Shown one piece after another: positions 3,850 through 46,350 of a stretch of 59,671 nt of DNA. The position numbers and the translations under genes were made by a program. The first letter of the stretch is position 1, and each line of letters opens with the position of its first letter. The stretch spans positions 1 to 59,671 of the forward strand of contig JACAEK010000041.1 of the NCBI GenBank assembly GCA_013388895.1. Direction: 5' to 3'. A model generated the notes under the pieces. It made no database searches and was not told where the DNA came from. It was given only the letters and a program-made list of their open reading frames with translations. This DNA comes from Candidatus Bathyarchaeota archaeon (lineage in GTDB: Archaea > Thermoproteota > Bathyarchaeia > Bathyarchaeales > Bathycorpusculaceae).

Positions 3850-4890
3850 TTAAGCGTTTAGAATGCTAGGCTCTAAAGGCTGGAAAACGCCTTCGACAAG
3901 AATGTCCATTTCTGAGTGGTTTTTGTTGTAAACTTTGACCGTGGGCTTTGAAACTAGAAAGTCCATGTGGTTTTTTGACTGGTTTTTTCCGTCTGGCATG
4001 TCAGAGTTGTTGCCGAATGCTATGTGGATTGTGCCTAGCATTTTTTCTGCTTCAAGAAATTCCTCGACAAACCTTGCTTTGGAGTTTATTCCGAAGGCAA
4101 ACTCGCCTGCAACATTTGACCAATCGTCCGTATCTAGAGAATTCCGCATCCTCTTCAACACATCTGAGTCCTCAGAAAAAGAGTCTTGAACTTTTCCGTT
4201 TCTGACAGTTAACTTAACAGGATGCTTCAATGGACCAATGCCGCCAATTGCCATGTCGCACACTAGTGTGCCTTCTAAAGAATCTTCTAATGGTGCAACG
4301 ATGACTTCACCTGTGGGCAGGTTCATCCATTTCATATGCTCCCAATCGATTTGGGTATCTGTAAAAAAGGGTCTTCCTTCAACATGTAAAACAATATTCG
4401 TGCCAGATGGATTGGTAATCTTCACTTTTGCTGCTTGGCTTAGTTTTTGCATTAGCCTCTTTGCAAAGTCTTGCATCTGCCTATGTTCATTGTTTTCTAA
4501 GGCTAAAGCACCATCAGTTAGCATGTCTAAAGTGACACCTGGACAATGACCTAAACGTGCCTTGTGTTTTTCTGTTTCCATATGGATTAGTTTGATTCTG
4601 AAAGGTGTTTCTTCGCGACTCCCTCGAAAGAGATTAATGTAAATATCAGAGGCCTGTTTTGACATTAATTCCATGATTTGCTGTGGAATTTCCTTTCGAA
4701 AAACGTCTGGGCTGGTTTTTAATGGTACTAATTTTGTTTGAAGTCCGAGTTTGAGGGCGCCATTTGAAAATGCTGAACCGACTTCCATTTTTACATCGTC
4801 ACAGAAAATTGCCACAGTTTCGCCTTTCTTTGCTTCCAAAACACATTCTAACGCGTTTTTTGCTGCTTTCCAAGCTTCCATTTTTATCAA
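3850..4890 (-). CDS. M29-family aminopeptidase-like metalloprotein
   Basis: The 346-residue protein matches the thermophilic aminopeptidase (M29/AmpS) pattern. It has the NLPTGEVIVAP motif with the first metal-ligand Glu, GEFAFGIN with a second acidic ligand, LGTIHIAFGNN with a His, and NHMDFLV with the His/Asp pair near the C terminus. The N-terminal half is the usual alpha/beta domain (GETVAIFCDD). The family binds two metal ions and removes N-terminal residues from peptides in the cytoplasm. The protein is somewhat shorter than bacterial M29 enzymes (about 370-410 residues). The second Met at residue 4 (MEAWKAA) may be the true start. Confidence 0.85.
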   Translation of the reverse strand: MIKMEAWKAAKNALECVLEAKKGETVAIFCDDVKMEVGSAFSNGALKLGLQTKLVPLKTSPDVFRKEIPQQIMELMSKQASDIYINLFRGSREETPFRIKLIHMETEKHKARLGHCPGVTLDMLTDGALALENNEHRQMQDFAKRLMQKLSQAAKVKITNPSGTNIVLHVEGRPFFTDTQIDWEHMKWMNLPTGEVIVAPLEDSLEGTLVCDMAIGGIGPLKHPVKLTVRNGKVQDSFSEDSDVLKRMRNSLDTDDWSNVAGEFAFGINSKARFVEEFLEAEKMLGTIHIAFGNNSDMPDGKNQSKNHMDFLVSKPTVKVYNKNHSEMDILVEGVFQPLEPSILNA

Positions 4891-4937
4891 CTCGATGCTA
4901 GTTAATTAATAATTAGGTGATAAGGTTTTAGAATGGT

Positions 4938-6033
4938 TTAGCGGGTTCTTTTCGAGAGAGCATAGAAAGGAGCTAAAAACAGTGAAACGACGCCTAGAAG
5001 CACGAAATAACTTGGGTATCGAGCTTCTACAAAAAAGTAAGTCGGTATAAGATTGGCGATTCTGCCTAGCATTAATCCAATCTCCATCAGAACGAGGATG
5101 CTTGCATAACTCCCATTGCTGAAAGTATCACCATAATGTGCGAACCATGAAAGAGAAAGGCGCCTGCTAAACCTGAAAGAGGGGATAACGCCACAATATT
5201 ATACGTTGTTGATGCTGAAGCTATTGCAAAAAACCACACTGCATTTAAAATAGCGCCTATAATAGCAAATTGTACACGTACCCCTTTGATGTCTGAAAGC
5301 CAACTGACCAAAAAAGTGATTATACAAATTAGAATTGCGCTTGCTGTCAGAACTAGGCCCATCTGAAAAACTGTCTCAGCAAGAGTCAGCACAAATAGCG
5401 GATAAGCAAGCCAGTAGGCTTCAGCCAAACCCAAGAAAATGAAGGTCAAAAAGAAAATAGCGAATGTTCTTGTTTTCGGAATTGAAAATTTGTAGGTTTC
5501 TGGTCTAAATTTTATGCGTATGGAGAAGAGAAAAGCAGTTAGGTATAAAACTATTGAAACTGCGAAAAGCAATTGAAAACTAAAATGGGATATTATTAAG
5601 CCTCCAATTGCGGGACCTGCTATACCAGCAAGGGAAGGAATTATGGAAGAGAACAAGCTAACAGTTCTAGCCCGCATTTTTGATTCGCTCAATCGGAATT
5701 GGAGAAGGTTGAAACTAGGCCAGAAAGTTGCTATGCTAAGCCCGTAGGCTAATCCCAAAACTATGGGGCTTTTGACATAGATTAGGACGATGAAAAATAG
5801 CATTGTGAAGAATATGCCATAGCTTATTATTCGCTCAAAATTTTTGACAAGCTTTAGCAAGACAAGCGGAAGCAGTCCTATCACTATAAAAGTGATAAAT
5901 AAGATTTCTACAATCTCTCCTATGGTTAGACCCATTTCTTTGTAATAAACTGGAAGGAAACTTCCTGTGAGACTGCCTGTGAAAAAAATATGCTGACAAC
6001 GAATGCCAATGTCTTCAAAGAGACAGTTTGCAC
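4938..6033 (-). pseudogene. Major facilitator superfamily transporter with two frameshifts
   Basis: The central frame encodes most of a 12-helix MFS carrier (SLTGSFLPVYYKEMGL, then DIKG between helices 8 and 9 regions). Two shifts break it. Near 5982-5988, a run of seven A (T on the coding strand) interrupts the N terminus: the true start is probably GTG at 6031-6033 with AGGGTG just upstream, giving MKVQTVSLKTLAFVVSIFF before the break. Near 5149-5158 a second shift moves translation to the frame reading HYGDTFSNGSYASILVLMEIG, which ends at 4938-4940 with a basic tail. One extra T at each homopolymer would restore about 365 residues. This is either a recent pseudogene or a homopolymer assembly error. 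The substrate is unknown. Confidence 0.75.
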
Positions 6034-6110
6034 TTTCACACCCTGGACAATAAAAACTAAAGGCAGAAAAAGAATATTTATGTTTCAAAGTATGAGCGAT
6101 TTTTCCAGAA

Positions 6111-7319
6111 TCAGTAGGTTTGGATTTTCCCTTGGGCTAGTTCCATGCAGAACTTATCGATGTTTTCAAGTTCGCAATCCAGTACGTCGCTTATTTCGCG
6201 TCTAACCTTGTCCAAAGAATTGTTGCCCTTCATAATTACCTGCGCTGCTGCCACTGCTGGGTGGTCGATGGGATTTCCAATCTTGCTGAGCAACCAGACA
6301 TATACCTCTTCCACTTCTGGCACTTCTTCATAGACACCTTTGGCTATTCTGTATGTAAGAACATTGTAAATCTTGCCAACATGACTTACAGGATTTTTGC
6401 CCGCCGCCGCTTCTGAGCAGAAAGGTCTGTTTAGCGATATTAAACCATTTACACGATTTCCTCTTCCAACCTGTCCTGAATCACCACTGTCTGCACTTGT
6501 ACCTAAAACAGTCAGGTATATTCCACCTAAGCCTCTTCCGCGCACGTCTAAAGTATTTAATTGCACGTTAATGTTTTCAAAATCAGTATTTGCCCTAACG
6601 AATTTGTTGATTTCTTCCAGAATTTTTTCTTTCTTTTCGAAATAATCTTCTTCGCTGTCCACGAACTGGTCTACGAAAGCCATTGCAACAGTCAAGTTAA
6701 GGTTGCTGTTAGTCCTGAAACCCATGACTTTAATGTCTTCGCCTGATTCGGGAAAACGCTGTTTAAACTCTTTGGAATTCAGGAACTTTTCCGTTTTCAA
6801 GACTATTTTTTCAGTTTTGGTCGTTGGCGCATATCCAACAGCAGCAGAAGTATCATTAGCTCCCAATACTTTGCCTTTCCGTTTGAAAATGTCTTGCAGA
6901 CCAGCAGAGCCAGGTTTTAGTTCGACTTGATATTTAACGTGTTTTTCAGAGTCTATGAAGCGCATGTTTTTTCTGAACCATTCTTTGGCGCTGTTTATGG
7001 CTATTTCGCCTGTATCTATTTTCATGTGGTTGAATTCTGATGTTGCCCTGTCTCCGAATACGAAAAGTATTGGTTGTTTGACTGTGCCTCCGCCAAATTT
7101 TGATTCAGCTTCTCCGGCTGCAAGAAGAGCCTTGTCAACGTTATGATGTAGTATTGTGCCAGCTTTTTCTAAATATTCCTTGCTTAAGTGTATAGAAATG
7201 TGATCCATCACAGCATCGCATATATAGTCCGGATGCCCCAGACCTTTTCTTTCAACTATTTCAATGCGTTGTTTTTCAAGAGGTGTCTGTTTTAAGTCTT
7301 CTACGATTATATTTCGCAT
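6111..7319 (-). CDS. metK: S-adenosylmethionine synthetase, archaeal type
   Basis: The enzyme makes S-adenosylmethionine from methionine and ATP. The 402-residue protein shows archaeal MAT motifs: GLGHPDYICDAVMD near the N terminus, FGGGTVKQPILFVFGDRAT, GANDTSAAVGYAP, and DSGDSGQVGRGNRVNGLI. The ATG at 7317-7319 is chosen because a strong AAAGGAG ribosome site lies just upstream and MRNIIVEDL is the family start; an upstream in-frame ATG at 7362 would add 15 unlikely basic residues and run into the divergent gene. It is transcribed divergently from an HTH-CBS regulator, a suggestive pairing because CBS domains can bind SAM. Confidence 0.96.
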   Translation of the reverse strand: MRNIIVEDLKQTPLEKQRIEIVERKGLGHPDYICDAVMDHISIHLSKEYLEKAGTILHHNVDKALLAAGEAESKFGGGTVKQPILFVFGDRATSEFNHMKIDTGEIAINSAKEWFRKNMRFIDSEKHVKYQVELKPGSAGLQDIFKRKGKVLGANDTSAAVGYAPTTKTEKIVLKTEKFLNSKEFKQRFPESGEDIKVMGFRTNSNLNLTVAMAFVDQFVDSEEDYFEKKEKILEEINKFVRANTDFENINVQLNTLDVRGRGLGGIYLTVLGTSADSGDSGQVGRGNRVNGLISLNRPFCSEAAAGKNPVSHVGKIYNVLTYRIAKGVYEEVPEVEEVYVWLLSKIGNPIDHPAVAAAQVIMKGNNSLDKVRREISDVLDCELENIDKFCMELAQGKIQTY

Positions 7320-32873: not shown

Positions 32874-33428
32874 TTATCCATGTGCGTCTACACGAATCTC
32901 TATTTGGGCAAACAATTCTCTTTTTGCCTTGCAGATCGGACAAATGTAGGGCGGTTCTTCACGGAAAACCACGTAGCCACATTGTTTGCAGTACCACAAT
33001 TTTAGTTTAATCTCAGCAGCAGATTCTTGAGGCGTTACCTCAATTTTTTCGACTGGTTTTTCAGCAGAAGGCTCTACCGAAGCTATTCCATAGGCTCGAA
33101 TCTGCTTTTCCATTGGTCTCCGCTCAGGAACTGGCAGAATCGGAGTTTTGCCCTCATACAAGTCTTTTCTAACGTAAAGGGCGCAATAACAGGCGCCATA
33201 TTCTTGAACGTCTGGGTCTCTGTAATCGCAAGGGCAGATTATGTCTCTGTCAAGCTCGAACTTTCCAGTGGCAAGTCTGCATGGACAAAAGGGATATCCG
33301 TAACGCTCCTCATTGCGCTTAAGTCCCTCTAAAAGATCGTTAAGAAAGACGGGGTCTGGATGCAGGTAATAACCGTAAGTTTTTGCGTCGCTTTCAGCTC
33401 TCCGTCGCACTTGTTCCAAAGTTATCAA
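32874..33428 (-). CDS. Ferredoxin:thioredoxin reductase catalytic-type protein fused to a rubredoxin-like domain
   Basis: Residues 1-100 match the FTR beta chain: CPC at 48-50, CPC at 65-67 and CYC at 80-82. These are the Cys that hold the 4Fe-4S cluster and the redox-active disulfide in the family. An Ala/Glu/Pro linker leads to a C-terminal rubredoxin-like knuckle pair (LWYCKQCGYV ... YICPICKAKR) that should bind one iron or zinc. The family passes electrons from ferredoxin to a thiol protein; the fused rubredoxin domain could serve as donor. It overlaps the upstream glutaredoxin-like gene by 4 bp and was therefore probably co-translated with it. Confidence 0.88.
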   Translation of the reverse strand: MITLEQVRRRAESDAKTYGYYLHPDPVFLNDLLEGLKRNEERYGYPFCPCRLATGKFELDRDIICPCDYRDPDVQEYGACYCALYVRKDLYEGKTPILPVPERRPMEKQIRAYGIASVEPSAEKPVEKIEVTPQESAAEIKLKLWYCKQCGYVVFREEPPYICPICKAKRELFAQIEIRVDAHG

Positions 33429-33718
33429 ATTTCTAAAGCCTCCGTTATCTTGTCTTTGCGGAAGCCGTTGATCAAAATTTTATCGTCTATTATTATTGCT
33501 GGATAGCTTAAGCGTCCACCCTTTTTCAGAATGTCTTGGCTGATTTTTGCCTTGTCTTCGTCGTTGCAAAGATCAACATCAACATATTCGTATTCGATGT
33601 GGTTATCTTTCAAGAAATCTTTTGCCATTTTGCACCAAGCACATGTGCTTATTGCATATATCAGAACTTTGTGCGTTGTATTTTTACCAGAAACCTTAAC
33701 GACATCCATTCTTTTCAC
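33425..33718 (-). CDS. Glutaredoxin-like thiol oxidoreductase
   Basis: The 97-residue thioredoxin-fold protein has the active-site CAWC in AISTCAWCKMAKDFLKDNHIEYEYVDVDL and the cis-Pro in LSYPAIIIDD. Its end overlaps the start of the FTR-rubredoxin gene by 4 bp, making it the likely disulfide substrate of that reductase. The start is ATG at 33716-33718; the conserved fold begins at about residue 16, and the Met at residue 4 is an alternative. Confidence 0.9.
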   Translation of the reverse strand: MKRMDVVKVSGKNTTHKVLIYAISTCAWCKMAKDFLKDNHIEYEYVDVDLCNDEDKAKISQDILKKGGRLSYPAIIIDDKILINGFRKDKITEALEI

Positions 33719-33799
33719 TTGTTTATTTTCTAGGTTTGGTGTTCAATATAACGGTTTAGTAAGAAAAACCGAGAACAAAGTAACGAAAAAATGAGTTGT

Positions 33800-35173
33800 C
33801 TAGGCTTCTCTTAGGCTTCCAAATGCCCTTTGAACGACCTCTGACATTGCAGGGTGAATATGCATAGCTCTGATGATGGGAAGGAAAGTTTTGTCTCCAC
33901 AGATCATGACGTTTATGATTTCTTGAATTAGCGATGAGGCAAAAGGTCCTATTATGTGCCCGCCCAAAAGCTTTCCAGTCTCTTGTTCAACAATGACTTT
34001 CACAAATCCTTCTGGATTGCCCATAGCAGCGCCTAAGGCTGTGTCCTTGTATAGGGCTTTGCCAACTAGGATTTTGTATCCCCTTTGTTTCGCTTCTGCC
34101 TCTTTTAGGCCTACTGAGGCGACTTGTGGATGTGTGAAAATGGCGTGAGGCGCTGCCGAATAGTCCATTTGTGCTTTGTGTTCGTGGACTGCGTTGTGCC
34201 AGGCAATTTCTGCTTCGTAGTTGGCTACGTGCTTAAACATTTCTTTGCCAATGGCATCGCCAAAAGCCCATATATTCTTCTTACTAGTTTCCAAATATTC
34301 GTTTACCTTCACATAGCCTCTCTCATCCAACTGCACTCCAGTCTTCTCTGGTTTAAGCAAGTCAGAATTGGGAACGCGTCCAGCAGCAACCAATAAGGCT
34401 TCGGCGGAAAACTCTTTCAGCTTGCCAGTTTCCCGATTTTTTGCCACGACAGTTTTGACGCCGTTTTTCTCATACGCCTCTGTTGCCTCATAACTTGTGA
34501 ATATAGTCATCCTTTTTTCCAGTTCTGGCTTGAGCAAGTCGGAAATTTCAGGTTCTTCGTCGGGCACTAATCTATGGCTTCTTTGAAGAATTGCAACCCG
34601 CGTGCCCATGCTTGCGAAAAAGTGGCTGTACTCTGCGGCTATGTATCCTCCGCCTATTATGAGCATGGTTTTAGGCGGCTGCTCAAGCTCCAAAACAGTG
34701 TCGCTTGTTAAATAATCTATTTTTTCTATGCCTTTAATTGGTGGAATTCCAGGTCTTGCACCTGAAACAATGAAAATTCTGTCTCCTCTTATTGTTTGTT
34801 CGCCTATTTTCATTGTGTAATCTGAGATGAATTCGCCAACTGTTTTGAACCAGACTAGGTTCGGCGTAGCTTCTACTGCTTTAGCTTGATGTTGAGAATC
34901 TTCGTTGACAAAATCGTGCATACGCTTCATTATGTTTCTGAAGTTTACTGAGTCAAGTCTTGCGTTTACGCCTACCTTGTTTGCTTCTTGAATCGTTGCA
35001 ACTACGTCAGCGGGGTAAACGAGCATTTTTGACGGGATGCATCCGCGGTTTACACATGTTCCGCCCATGGGTCCAATTTCAACAACTGCTGTTTTCATGC
35101 CATGGTTAACTGCGTTTGAAGCAACATTCATCCCAGAACCAGAACCAATCACTATCACATCAAATTTTTCCAT
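33800..35173 (-). CDS. Dihydrolipoamide dehydrogenase-like FAD disulfide oxidoreductase
   Basis: The 457-residue protein is a class I pyridine-nucleotide disulfide oxidoreductase. It has FAD motif VIVIGSGSGMNVASNA, redox-active Cys40 and Cys45 in GGTCVNRGCIPSKM, an NAD(P)H motif IIGGGYIAAEYSHFFASMG, and the C-terminal catalytic His in HIHPAMSEVVQ. It resembles dihydrolipoamide, mycothione and mercuric reductases; the substrate is not fixed by sequence. No 2-oxoacid dehydrogenase genes are nearby. Its position upstream of the glutaredoxin/FTR pair on the same strand suggests a thiol-redox role. Confidence 0.9.
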   Translation of the reverse strand: MEKFDVIVIGSGSGMNVASNAVNHGMKTAVVEIGPMGGTCVNRGCIPSKMLVYPADVVATIQEANKVGVNARLDSVNFRNIMKRMHDFVNEDSQHQAKAVEATPNLVWFKTVGEFISDYTMKIGEQTIRGDRIFIVSGARPGIPPIKGIEKIDYLTSDTVLELEQPPKTMLIIGGGYIAAEYSHFFASMGTRVAILQRSHRLVPDEEPEISDLLKPELEKRMTIFTSYEATEAYEKNGVKTVVAKNRETGKLKEFSAEALLVAAGRVPNSDLLKPEKTGVQLDERGYVKVNEYLETSKKNIWAFGDAIGKEMFKHVANYEAEIAWHNAVHEHKAQMDYSAAPHAIFTHPQVASVGLKEAEAKQRGYKILVGKALYKDTALGAAMGNPEGFVKVIVEQETGKLLGGHIIGPFASSLIQEIINVMICGDKTFLPIIRAMHIHPAMSEVVQRAFGSLREA

Positions 35174-35296
35174 AACGTTTCACCGACACAAGTATGAATG
35201 CTACTATGATTAAGTGCTTCTTTTTGCTTTAAAAACTATGTCGTAAGGCGCAGTAATGGAAAATTATTTAGACTTGTAATTGCAGATTCTGCTTTG

Positions 35297-35521
35297 ATGG
35301 ATATGAGGAAAGTTGAAGATAACGAGAAAAACGTGGAAGTTTGCATGGGGCAGTGTGGTTCTTGCCCGAGCTATCCTGGAACAGATGAATGGCTCTTCTG
35401 CGCTCGAAACAAAAGCGCAAACAAGATTTCGAGAAAAGGTTGTTTGTGCCCAGCATGTCAAGTCTACACTGATTATGCGCTTTCGAGTAATTATTTCTGC
35501 GATAGGGAACCGCCAAAATAA
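35297..35521 (+). CDS. DUF2769-type cysteine-rich protein
   Basis: The protein of about 74 residues has seven or eight Cys in the pattern CMGQCGSCPSY ... FCARNKSA ... GCLCPACQVY ... YFCDRE, which matches the archaeal DUF2769 family. It probably binds zinc or an Fe-S cluster. Start codons at 35294, 35297 and 35303 are all in frame. It is divergent from the dihydrolipoamide-dehydrogenase-like gene. Confidence 0.85.
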   Translation: MDMRKVEDNEKNVEVCMGQCGSCPSYPGTDEWLFCARNKSANKISRKGCLCPACQVYTDYALSSNYFCDREPPK

Positions 35522-36613: not shown

Positions 36614-36928
36614 TTGCCAATAGATGCAGATTTTCAGAAAAACCGCACAGTTGTGAATCAGCACAACAACCATAATGTATGGGGACCTGTGGAACCACCA
36701 TCAAAGCTCGGCATACATGGAACAAACGTGGCTGTTGACTGGGACATCTGCACAGGAGACGGCGTCTGCATAGAAGTTTGCCCAGTGACCCTTTTTGACT
36801 GGGCTGATTCGCCGGGGCACTCAACTTCCGAAAAGAAATCTGACCCAGCCAGAGAATCAGAATGCATCCAATGTCTTGCATGCGAAACTCAATGTCCAAC
36901 TCAAGCCATAAAAATTACTCCACCGTAG
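36614..36928 (+). CDS. Ferredoxin with an N-terminal extension (archaeal zinc-ferredoxin-like)
   Basis: The 104-residue protein has two Cys groups: CTGDGVCIEVCP and CIQCLACETQCP, holding two iron-sulfur clusters (probably one 3Fe-4S or 4Fe-4S and one 4Fe-4S). The N-terminal extension with VVNQHNNHNVWGPVEPPSKLGIHGTNVAVDWDIC matches archaeal zinc-containing ferredoxins, whose His residues bind zinc. TTG at 36614 is the start, with AGGTG 10 nt upstream. It serves as an electron carrier for oxidoreductases such as the FTR protein nearby. Confidence 0.9.
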   Translation: MPIDADFQKNRTVVNQHNNHNVWGPVEPPSKLGIHGTNVAVDWDICTGDGVCIEVCPVTLFDWADSPGHSTSEKKSDPARESECIQCLACETQCPTQAIKITPP

Positions 36929-42944: not shown

Positions 42945-45035
42945 ATGGCTATTACAAAAATAAGGAAGAGAGATGGAAGAGTCGTTGATTTTGACTCCAG
43001 CAGAATCAAGGATGCTGTTCACAAGGCTTTTATTGCTGTTGAACTTGGAGATGGAGAAAAAGCATCAAGCATAACAGATGAAGTGGTTCAGCTTTTAGAG
43101 GAAAGATTCAAGGAAAAGATTCCTTCAGTTGAAGACGCTCAAGATGTTGTTAATGAGGTTTTGACGCGAAAAGGCTTCGAAAGAGTTGCGACAGAATATC
43201 AGGATTTCAGAAAAGAGAAAGAGGAGATAAGGGAATTAAGAGAGAAACTTGGAATAGAGCCAAAATTAACGATTAATGCTCTGGAAGTTTTGAAAGCCAG
43301 ATATCTTCTGAAAGACGAGACTGAGAAAATTGTCGAAACTCCAACTGAGTTGTTTATGAGAGTGGCCAAAGCAGTAGCCAGAGTAGATGGAAACTACGGT
43401 GACAACCCCAAAAAAACCGAGGAAATCTTTTATCAAATGATGTCAAGACTGGAATTTGTTCCTAATACGCCAACTCTCTTTAACGCAGGGACGGACATTG
43501 GCCAACTATCCGCATGCTTCGTTCTACCTGTGGAAGATTCGTTGGAAGGCATTTTTACAACGGTCAAAAACATGGCTTTTATAGAGCAGACTGGTGGAGG
43601 AGTGGGCTTTGATTTTTCAAGACTAAGACCGAACGGAGACATCGTTGGATCAACAAAAGGCGTAGCATCTGGTCCTGTGAGTTTTATGCGTGTTTTCGAC
43701 ACTGCAACAGAAATCATAAAGGCTGGTGGAAAACGCCGAGGCGCCATGATGGGAATTTTAAGAATCGACCACCCAGATATTCTTGAATTCATAACTTCTA
43801 AGCAGAAACCCGGTTTTCTTTCGAACTTCAACATTTCAGTCGCCATTACTGACGAGTTTATGACAACTCTTGAAGAGGATGGAGAATATTGGTTGACAAA
43901 CCCAAGGAACAAAGAAAAAGTTGGAAAACTCAAAGCAAAAAATGTTTGGAATTTGATGGCAAAATCTGCTTGGGAAAGCGGAGACCCGGGCATAGTTTTT
44001 ATCGACGAGATAAATAGGCATAATCCCACGCCACAAGTTGGAAGGATAGAATCAACGAATCCTTGCGGTGAACAGCCGTTGCTTCCTTATGAATCTTGCA
44101 ATTTGGGTTCAATAAATCTTTCAAAAATGGTGAAAAATGGAAAAATAAACTGGGAGAAACTGAAAGAAACCATCAGAAACGCTGTTCATTTTCTGGATAA
44201 TATCGTTGATGCGAACAAGTACACTTTGAAGGAAATTGAAGCCATAACTAAGGCAAACAGAAAAATCGGTCTAGGCGTCATGGGATTTGCAGACATGCTC
44301 ATAATACTAGGGGTTCCCTACAATTCTGATGAAGCTTTGCAATTAGGCGAGAAGCTGATGAAATTTATTGAAGAAGAATCGCACAAAAAATGTGTAGAAA
44401 TCGCCCAAGAAAGAGGTTCTTTCCCCAATTTTGAAGGAAGCATATGGAAAAACAAGTATAAGGCTTTCAGAAATGCCACAGTAACAACCATAGCGCCCAC
44501 AGGAACCATAAGCATAATAGCCGGTTGCTCTTCAGGAATCGAGCCAATCTTTGCAATTTCTTTTATAAGGAACGTTCTAGGCGGAAAGAGGCTTTTTGAA
44601 ACAAATTCCCTATTCGAGACACTTGCTAAAGATCATGGTTTCTACAGTGCAGGGCTTCTGGAAGAAATAGCAAAAACTGGTTCAGTTCAGAAAATTGATG
44701 GAGTGCCAGACGATGTTAAGAGGCTTTTTGTCACGGCGCTTGATATTGAACCCGAGTGGCATGTGAAAATGCAAGCGGTTTTCCAAAGATATACGGACAA
44801 TGCAGTGTCGAAAACGGTAAACCTGCCTACCGATGCTACAGTTGAAGACGTAGCAGAAGTCTTCGATCTCGCTTGGAAGCTAAAATGTAAAGGCGTCACA
44901 ATTTTTAGATATGGTAGCAAGCCTGAACAAGTTCTGTATATAGGAGAGATAAAAACTAAAGAGACAAAGTTTGTAGCGGCAGAATCAGAATACGCAGGAG
45001 GTTGTCCGACAAAAAACTGCCCATTTCCAAGCTGA
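42945..45035 (+). CDS. nrdJ: Ribonucleotide reductase, class II (adenosylcobalamin-dependent)
   Basis: The 696-residue enzyme makes deoxyribonucleotides. An ATP-cone fills the N terminus (ITKIRKRDGRVVDFDSSRIKDAVHKAF), then the catalytic barrel with NTPTLFNAGT, QLSACFVLPVEDS, the radical-site Cys loop NPCGEQPLLPYESCNLGSINL, and the late loop APTGTISIIAG. The C terminus GGCPTKNCPFPS carries the Cys pair that recharges the active site. No small subunit is present, and the size and Cys layout fit NrdJ. A TATA-like TTTTTAATATTC lies about 40 bp before the ATG. Confidence 0.95.
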   Translation: MAITKIRKRDGRVVDFDSSRIKDAVHKAFIAVELGDGEKASSITDEVVQLLEERFKEKIPSVEDAQDVVNEVLTRKGFERVATEYQDFRKEKEEIRELREKLGIEPKLTINALEVLKARYLLKDETEKIVETPTELFMRVAKAVARVDGNYGDNPKKTEEIFYQMMSRLEFVPNTPTLFNAGTDIGQLSACFVLPVEDSLEGIFTTVKNMAFIEQTGGGVGFDFSRLRPNGDIVGSTKGVASGPVSFMRVFDTATEIIKAGGKRRGAMMGILRIDHPDILEFITSKQKPGFLSNFNISVAITDEFMTTLEEDGEYWLTNPRNKEKVGKLKAKNVWNLMAKSAWESGDPGIVFIDEINRHNPTPQVGRIESTNPCGEQPLLPYESCNLGSINLSKMVKNGKINWEKLKETIRNAVHFLDNIVDANKYTLKEIEAITKANRKIGLGVMGFADMLIILGVPYNSDEALQLGEKLMKFIEEESHKKCVEIAQERGSFPNFEGSIWKNKYKAFRNATVTTIAPTGTISIIAGCSSGIEPIFAISFIRNVLGGKRLFETNSLFETLAKDHGFYSAGLLEEIAKTGSVQKIDGVPDDVKRLFVTALDIEPEWHVKMQAVFQRYTDNAVSKTVNLPTDATVEDVAEVFDLAWKLKCKGVTIFRYGSKPEQVLYIGEIKTKETKFVAAESEYAGGCPTKNCPFPS

Positions 45036-45160
45036 TGAACGAATTTGCAATAAAAACAATGATTATTGAGGCTGAACTGCAAGTTACAAATGCATCGAGA
45101 GCTAACTCATTGATTGAAAAATGGAATCTTTGCAGGTATGCTGACTAACAGCTGATATGG

Positions 45161-45577
45161 TTATCGCTCTATTCTTAAGCTATAGCTTGCTTTGACTCCT
45201 GCTTTTTCGAAAAGCTTTCCAACAGGGCAATTTTTTAGGGTTAGTTTAAGTATTCTTTGGATTCTGTCTTCAGGAGCATCTGCTTTGACCAAAATGCCAA
45301 AGCTAGCCTCAGTTATCGTACCTTCCTCTTCTGATTTGACAGCTTCCATTTTAACCTCCAAATCTTTCAGCGAAATTCGCATTTTCTTTGCTGTTAGAAT
45401 GAAGATTGTTGCCAAACAGCCAGCGTAGCTCATTACGCCCAGTTCTAGAGCTGTGGGCCCCATATCTGTTCCAAGTTCGGGTGGCAGATCTAAACAAACG
45501 CTGTGAGCCCTACCGTCATCAACTGTTATCCGCAAATCTTTGACCATTTTTGCGTTTGCATAGAGTTTCTCCGTCAT
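45161..45577 (-). CDS. OsmC-family protein
   Basis: The 138-residue protein has the OsmC/Ohr fold with the conserved Cys in GVMSYAGCLATIFILTAKKM and a late catalytic-type Cys in KNCPVGKLFEKA. The family includes peroxide-reducing and stress-related enzymes. It lies convergent with nrdJ. The N terminus LYANAKMVKDLRITVDDGRAHSV is typical of small archaeal OsmC proteins. Confidence 0.9.
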   Translation of the reverse strand: MTEKLYANAKMVKDLRITVDDGRAHSVCLDLPPELGTDMGPTALELGVMSYAGCLATIFILTAKKMRISLKDLEVKMEAVKSEEEGTITEASFGILVKADAPEDRIQRILKLTLKNCPVGKLFEKAGVKASYSLRIER

Positions 45578-45705
45578 TTCTATTTCACTTTTCTAATTTT
45601 CTTATTTACTCCTTTATTCGATTTTAGGAAAGTATAAGAAGGATTCGCCCCGCAATTATTTTAGAGAGGCTAAAAGGAATAATCAAGTTAGAGGCGCGGG
45701 CATAA

Positions 45706-46350
45706 ATGAGTCTGATACCAGAAGAGCATAAAGAGCATTTGAAGACAGAACTTAATGAGAAACTGGAAAAACCAGTGAAACTCGTCATGTTCACTCAGGA
45801 AATTGAATGCCAATTCTGTTCACAGACTAGAGAGCTAATCAATGAAATGGCAACTTTAAGCGACAAAATCAAAGTTGGAATCTACGACCTTATTGCAGAT
45901 GCTGAGAAGGCAAAAGAATACAATGTTGAAAAAGTTCCAGCATTAATCATTATGGGTGAAAAGGACTTTGGCATCAGATATTATGGATTGCCATTCGGTT
46001 ATGAACTTCAAACTCTCATAGAGGGCATAATAAACGTCTCAAAAGGAAAAACCGACATTCCAGAGGAAACTAGACAGAGACTTAAAGAAATTAACAAGCC
46101 AGTCCATATACAAGTTTTTGTAACTTTAACCTGTCCATACTGTCCTAAAGTTGCAAGCGTCGCCTACAGATTTGCCATTGAAAGCGATTTTGTGAAGACT
46201 GACGTTATCGATGCAGGTGAATTCCCACATATAGGTCTCAAATATAATGTGATGGGTGTTCCGAAAACGGTCATAAACGAGAAAATAGAATTTATCGGAG
46301 TGCTTCCCGAGGACCTTTTTCTTGAACACATTCTGCTTGCTACAATCTAA
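45706..46350 (+). CDS. Protein disulfide oxidoreductase with two thioredoxin folds (PDO)
   Basis: The 214-residue protein has two thioredoxin-like units with active sites CQFC (in TQEIECQFCSQTREL) and CPYC (in TLTCPYCPKVA), each followed by cis-Pro (VEKVPALII and VMGVPKTVI). This is the PDO of archaea and some bacteria, which handles intracellular disulfides together with a thioredoxin reductase. It is followed after 21 bp by a DUF166 gene. Confidence 0.93.
   Translation: MSLIPEEHKEHLKTELNEKLEKPVKLVMFTQEIECQFCSQTRELINEMATLSDKIKVGIYDLIADAEKAKEYNVEKVPALIIMGEKDFGIRYYGLPFGYELQTLIEGIINVSKGKTDIPEETRQRLKEINKPVHIQVFVTLTCPYCPKVASVAYRFAIESDFVKTDVIDAGEFPHIGLKYNVMGVPKTVINEKIEFIGVLPEDLFLEHILLATI

Follow-up and report, generated by a model that had tools for sequence, protein, structure and literature searches.

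In a Candidatus Bathyarchaeota genome, a glutaredoxin and a ferredoxin:disulfide reductase (FDR) encoded by overlapping genes probably form a ferredoxin-driven dithiol system, and the flavoprotein encoded just upstream is probably an NAD(P)H-dependent disulfide reductase. The genome comprises 1.58 Mb in 58 contigs and is 95.8% complete; we analysed a stretch of 59,671 nucleotides from it (the window), and the nearest named relatives are other Candidatus Bathyarchaeota MAGs. All three genes lie on the minus strand, with open frames. The first, labelled dihydrolipoyl dehydrogenase, encodes a class-I flavoprotein disulfide reductase of 457 amino acids (33800-35173). It ends 81 bp before the GTG (33718) of the glutaredoxin frame (33425-33718), for which ATG at 33709 is the more probable start, since the closest relatives begin there. 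The FDR gene (32874-33428; 184 amino acids) starts with TTG, and this start is supported by the closest relative (L002, 88% identical), which has ATG at the same position. The end of the glutaredoxin frame overlaps the beginning of the FDR gene by 4 bp (TTGA, 33425-33428). Both the 4-bp overlap of an FTR-rubredoxin gene with a CAWC glutaredoxin-like gene and the position of a DLD-like disulfide reductase upstream of this pair had been described in a previous sequence-only reading, and both were confirmed here.

The same reading had placed an FTR beta-chain and rubredoxin knuckles in one chain, and this is borne out by two Pfam domains above their cut-offs. Residues 1-105 of FDR (33114-33428) form a domain that aligns with the catalytic chain (FTRc) of ferredoxin:thioredoxin reductase (FTR) (FeThRed_B, 79.8 bits; cut-off, 22), and residues 142-178 (32895-33005) form a rubredoxin-like tail (RUBY_RBDX, 41.2 bits; cut-off, 26.5). 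The six FTR cysteines are present as two CPC pairs (C48 and C50, C65 and C67) and one CxC pair (C80 and C82), and the tail knuckles contribute C147, C150, C163, and C166. Y81 sits between C80 and C82, giving CYC where plant-type FTR has the His of CHC. A phmmer search against solved structures matched FDR to the Methanosarcina acetivorans FDR (4TPU) over residues 5 to 175, the tail included (1.6e-43), and a profile of 31 rows matched 4TPU at 2e-57. The fusion of FTR with rubredoxin is thus not novel, and the four-cysteine pattern of the tail is present in 69 of 73 FDR rows. Tyr at the position of the FTR histidine is common to our FDR, 4TPU, and the Desulfotalea psychrophila protein 7PWE. It occurs in 69 of the 73 rows, with Phe in L069, Leu in L072, and the broken rows L031 and L032 left unread. 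The predicted model of FDR (pLDDT of 82, with a low-confidence linker at residues 116 to 138) aligned with 4TPU at Z 15.7 and with 7PWE at Z 17.7; the rmsd of 18.5 Å to 4TPU probably reflects a different placement of the tail in the model. Plant and cyanobacterial FTR share the fold of the catalytic chain (Z of about 10) and the six cysteines, but the protein described here has Tyr for His and an added rubredoxin tail, and its genome lacks FTRv.

Only a single FTRc is encoded in this genome, and at 95.8% completeness it gave no match to FTRv (PF02941), for which a Synechococcus control was positive. It had been suggested that the tail replaces FTRv as electron donor. This was worded wrongly, because FTRv, to our knowledge, has no redox centre, and the tail is therefore better regarded as an extra relay step and not as a stand-in for FTRv. 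From the amino acid sequence one cannot separate iron from zinc as the metal of the tail, and the C-terminal knuckles might instead be a structural zinc ribbon, with ferredoxin reducing the [4Fe-4S] cluster directly, as may occur in tail-less Lokiarchaeial relatives. Two such relatives (L070 and L071) keep the glutaredoxin gene beside an FTRc without any tail, and the tail of our FDR can be aligned with zinc ribbons of MCM proteins at Z 3.4 to 4.0. However, rubrerythrin rubredoxin domains are nearer (Z 5.7 to 5.8), the rubrerythrin rubredoxin family scores above its cut-off for the tail, and the tail is homologous to that of 4TPU. For the M. acetivorans FDR, a rubredoxin iron and the reduction of methanoredoxin were reportedly described by Prakash in 2018. 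We consider the zinc ribbon quite improbable and the relay function the better reading of the tail.

The glutaredoxin is the likely partner of FDR. Its best solved relative is methanoredoxin (5CAX), both by sequence (61 bits, about 35% identity) and by predicted fold (TM of 0.86), so that a glutaredoxin fold, a CxWC motif (C26-A-W-C29), and methanoredoxin as nearest solved relative are all found together; the use of coenzyme M, in contrast, belongs to 5CAX. All 69 rows keep C26 and C29, and 68 of them also have W28. Among 72 related loci, which were retrieved by peptide patterns from the query and are consequently dominated by close relatives, 70 have a glutaredoxin gene beside FDR (68 called neighbours, plus tblastn remnants or cut copies in L031 and L053). 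No glutaredoxin match was found at the FDR locus in the other two (L019 and L072), and FDR or glutaredoxin frames are broken in L031 and L032. Conservation in 70 of 72 related loci argues that the pairing is not due to chance. In addition, the glutaredoxin gene ends with NTGA in 64 of the 69 loci with a called pair, the window counted.

Known systems point in the same direction. According to its title, the crystal structure 7PWE is a glutaredoxin/FDR fusion, and both parts are in a single chain; it shares with our pair a glutaredoxin and an FTRc with CYC. It differs in that it is a fusion without a matched rubredoxin tail, whereas here the chains are separate and the tail is present. The M. 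acetivorans FDR resembles ours in its FTRc domain, in CYC instead of CHC, and in the C-terminal rubredoxin-like tail. Here the gene overlaps a glutaredoxin gene and adjoins that of a class-I flavoprotein, a comparison that leaves out the gene context of 4TPU. A passage of PMC6491703 states that methanoredoxin utilizes coenzyme M and FDR, and a passage of PMC6262447 describes MaTrx5 as being reduced by FDR. Sequence, fold, gene order, the 7PWE fusion, and the M. acetivorans precedent agree on a transfer from FDR to glutaredoxin.

We propose a path in which all electron-transfer steps are drawn by homology from the FDR and methanoredoxin of M. acetivorans. Electrons from reduced ferredoxin would arrive one at a time at the rubredoxin iron in FDR and move on to the [4Fe-4S] cluster of the active site. 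There the C50-C82 disulfide would be cleaved by the cluster, with Y81 standing where FTR has histidine, and the resulting FDR dithiol would reduce the CAWC disulfide in the glutaredoxin, which may in turn act on disulfides in the cell, such as those of peroxiredoxin, ribonucleotide reductase, or others. The flavoprotein would use NAD(P)H to reduce either the glutaredoxin itself or a small disulfide used by it; this is the weakest step of the scheme. The sequence-only reading had tentatively joined the three genes into one thiol-reduction chain fed by ferredoxin and NAD(P)H. Its part concerning FDR and glutaredoxin is well supported, and the membership of the flavoprotein is supported by co-occurrence.

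The flavoprotein has a CVNRGC redox motif and a C-terminal His-Glu pair, and with its FAD and NAD domains it resembles both mycothione reductase and lipoamide dehydrogenase. It could be an ordinary lipoamide dehydrogenase, the L-protein of glycine cleavage, and a mere neighbour of the glutaredoxin-FDR pair. Indeed, it scores 638 bits with the NCBIfam dihydrolipoyl dehydrogenase model NF004947, above the cut-off of 592. Also, GcvP genes are present in the genome that encodes it, along with a lipoate ligase and three GcvH-like genes, and none of the other PF07992 matches inspected there in translation is a class-I flavoprotein with CxxxxC. However, a tree of 40 rows separates two flavoprotein clades with full support, one with GGTCxNxGC (24 rows, including every operon copy; GGTCVNRGC in our protein) and one with GGICLT[RK]GC (16 rows), and a member of the second clade reaches 782 bits with NF004947, so the name of this model does not separate the clades. 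In the PDB, mycothione reductase is matched at 293 bits and the best lipoamide dehydrogenase at only 206 bits; the mycothione reductase models themselves stay below their cut-offs (NF005884, 418 versus 501 bits; TIGR03452, 393 versus 636 bits). Unlike mycothione reductase and lipoamide dehydrogenase, our flavoprotein falls in a clade of its own that tracks FDR.

This tracking was seen across 189 genomes from the class to which our genome belongs. The GGTCxNxGC clade is present in 50 of them, of which 44 have FTRc and only 17 have GcvP; among the 139 genomes without this clade, FTRc is found in 40. Two FTRc matches with internal stops (G088 and G105) were excluded before counting. Clade membership of genomes outside the tree was assigned by identity, and after the 40-row tree eight genomes of the f23 family (49 to 53% identity) were added, three of which are in the tree (G180, G185, and G187). 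A cut at 54% identity between the clades had been tried and was rejected because it split one clade (42 genomes, 39 with FTRc and 9 with GcvP). The genome counts are not independent of one another; at the genus level the proportions are 12 of 14 genera versus 27 of 73 (p = 0.001, a P-value that ignores shared descent). Within genus g5, FTRc occurs in 21 of 22 genomes with the clade and in 1 of 9 without it, and GcvP occurs in none of the 31. Of the 107 genomes with GcvP, 56 gave no match to either DLD clade at E ≤ 1e-100, and GcvP is missing from 33 of the 50 genomes with the GGTCxNxGC clade. The flavoprotein thus tracks FDR better than it tracks glycine cleavage, and we regard a role confined to the L-protein as rather unlikely. 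It may nevertheless also act as lipoamide dehydrogenase in this genome, given the GcvP genes, the GcvH-like genes, the lipoate ligase, and the lack of another CxxxxC flavoprotein among the inspected matches.

We also considered whether the flavoprotein simply follows GcvH. As GcvH is present in 178 of the 189 genomes, this link is uninformative either way, and stand-alone GcvH must be common, with GcvP in only 107. Some GcvH genes have neighbours of their own. On contig C54 of genome G000 (152003-153270; L074 and L078), a GcvH gene overlaps the gene for a flavoprotein that resembles single-cysteine CoA-disulfide reductases and NADH oxidases. At about 113000-121000 of the same contig (L075, L076, and L083), there are two GcvH-like proteins that are extended at the N terminus, whose genes adjoin a GltD-like ORF and a flavoprotein ORF of 1,021 amino acids.

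Gene order links the flavoprotein to FDR as well. In 27 genomes its gene precedes FTRc within 2.3 kb and in the same orientation. Of 59 loci that reach 1.8 kb or more upstream of the glutaredoxin gene, 24 (the window counted) have it upstream of the pair, 6 have it in another place, and 29 lack it within the examined stretch, which indicates that it is not obligatory. The counts of FTRc (44 of 50) and GcvP (17 of 50), together with the position upstream of FDR in 27 genomes, argue for a second input fed by NAD(P)H. Regarding the nucleotide, most Bathyarchaeial operon copies carry Gln-Arg and further basic residues after the second strand of the NAD domain, while the operon flavoproteins of Jordarchaeia and Freyarchaeia (L016, L025, L029, and L030) have Glu at that position. 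A basic stretch there is found in NADPH-dependent reductases and Glu is usual for NADH, so the preference may have switched between these groups. As a tentative and somewhat doubtful extension, the "lipoamide dehydrogenase" label could be a misnomer: with NAD(P)H as its donor, this disulfide reductase would supply electrons to the glutaredoxin, directly or via an archaeal small thiol, in a two-input hub for oxygen and peroxide defence. If so, one thiol carrier could be recharged from either ferredoxin or NAD(P)H, for example, for the peroxide-removing proteins encoded nearby in many relatives.

A different arrangement was seen at one further locus (L100 in genome G142, 4503-6730), where a close relative of our glutaredoxin, with CPWC, lies beside a flavoprotein of the other clade, after a thioredoxin-reductase-like ORF. 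No FDR gene adjoins this pair, and it hints that a link between flavoprotein and glutaredoxin may be possible without FDR.

The glutaredoxin-FDR part of this system is already known, and a redoxin partner has been reported for Methanosarcina, where FDR and methanoredoxin were studied. We now find the tightly coupled pair in uncultured archaea, in MAGs named Bathyarchaeota, Methanomethylicota, Jordarchaeia, Asgard-group, and others. What is new is that FDR is statistically linked to a class-I flavoprotein that is possibly mislabelled, and this link calls for caution with the standing annotation. Our literature search, which covered open-licence papers, found no description of the DLD-glutaredoxin-FDR cluster.

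As to the donor, the sequence-only reading had pointed to the divergent ferredoxin gene at 36614-36928 on the plus strand. The gene is real, and its product, which matches 1XER at 135 bits, belongs to the zinc-containing ferredoxins known from Sulfolobus; a gene of this type lies in the examined flank of 25 of the 72 relatives. This ferredoxin is a possible donor.

The flanks of the relatives also bear on the use of the reduced glutaredoxin. Genes for peroxiredoxin (20 of 72), Fe/Mn superoxide dismutase (16), rubrerythrin (12), and flavodiiron-type proteins (6) recur there, and at least one of these is found in 31 of the 72. This makes a role of the family in oxygen and peroxide defence plausible. 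None of the four was seen to flank the locus in the window, and the single AhpC/TSA peroxiredoxin gene of this genome is located elsewhere. Alternatively, the glutaredoxin might be an NrdH in function and ribonucleotide reductase the main recipient of electrons from the pair. A class II ribonucleotide reductase gene is present in the window (42945-45035; NrdJ_Z, 731 bits), and NrdH was reportedly reduced by FDR in the 2015 work of Wei. The title of that work, as given in reference lists, states that FDR supplies electrons to the class III ribonucleotide reductase of M. barkeri, and a passage of PMC6262447 cites FDR as an electron supply for a class III enzyme. Against this, ribonucleotide reductase is not among the listed families that recur near the pair, unlike peroxiredoxin, superoxide dismutase, and rubrerythrin, and the glutaredoxin fold is nearer to methanoredoxin than to NrdH (4FIW and 1H75). 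We therefore hold ribonucleotide reductase to be an unlikely main target.

Some other genes of the window deserve mention. The region at 42945-46350, within 14 kb of the pair, encodes the class II ribonucleotide reductase, an OsmC-like protein, and a protein disulfide oxidoreductase, which could be targets of the pair or parallel thiol carriers. An endonuclease III gene follows FDR in the window and is present in 34 of the 72 relatives; this recurrence may be plain synteny. Between the flavoprotein and ferredoxin genes lies the gene for a small cysteine-rich DUF2769 protein (35294-35521, plus strand; 57 bits), relatives of which are also encoded near FDR in L002, L016, L025, L029, and L030.
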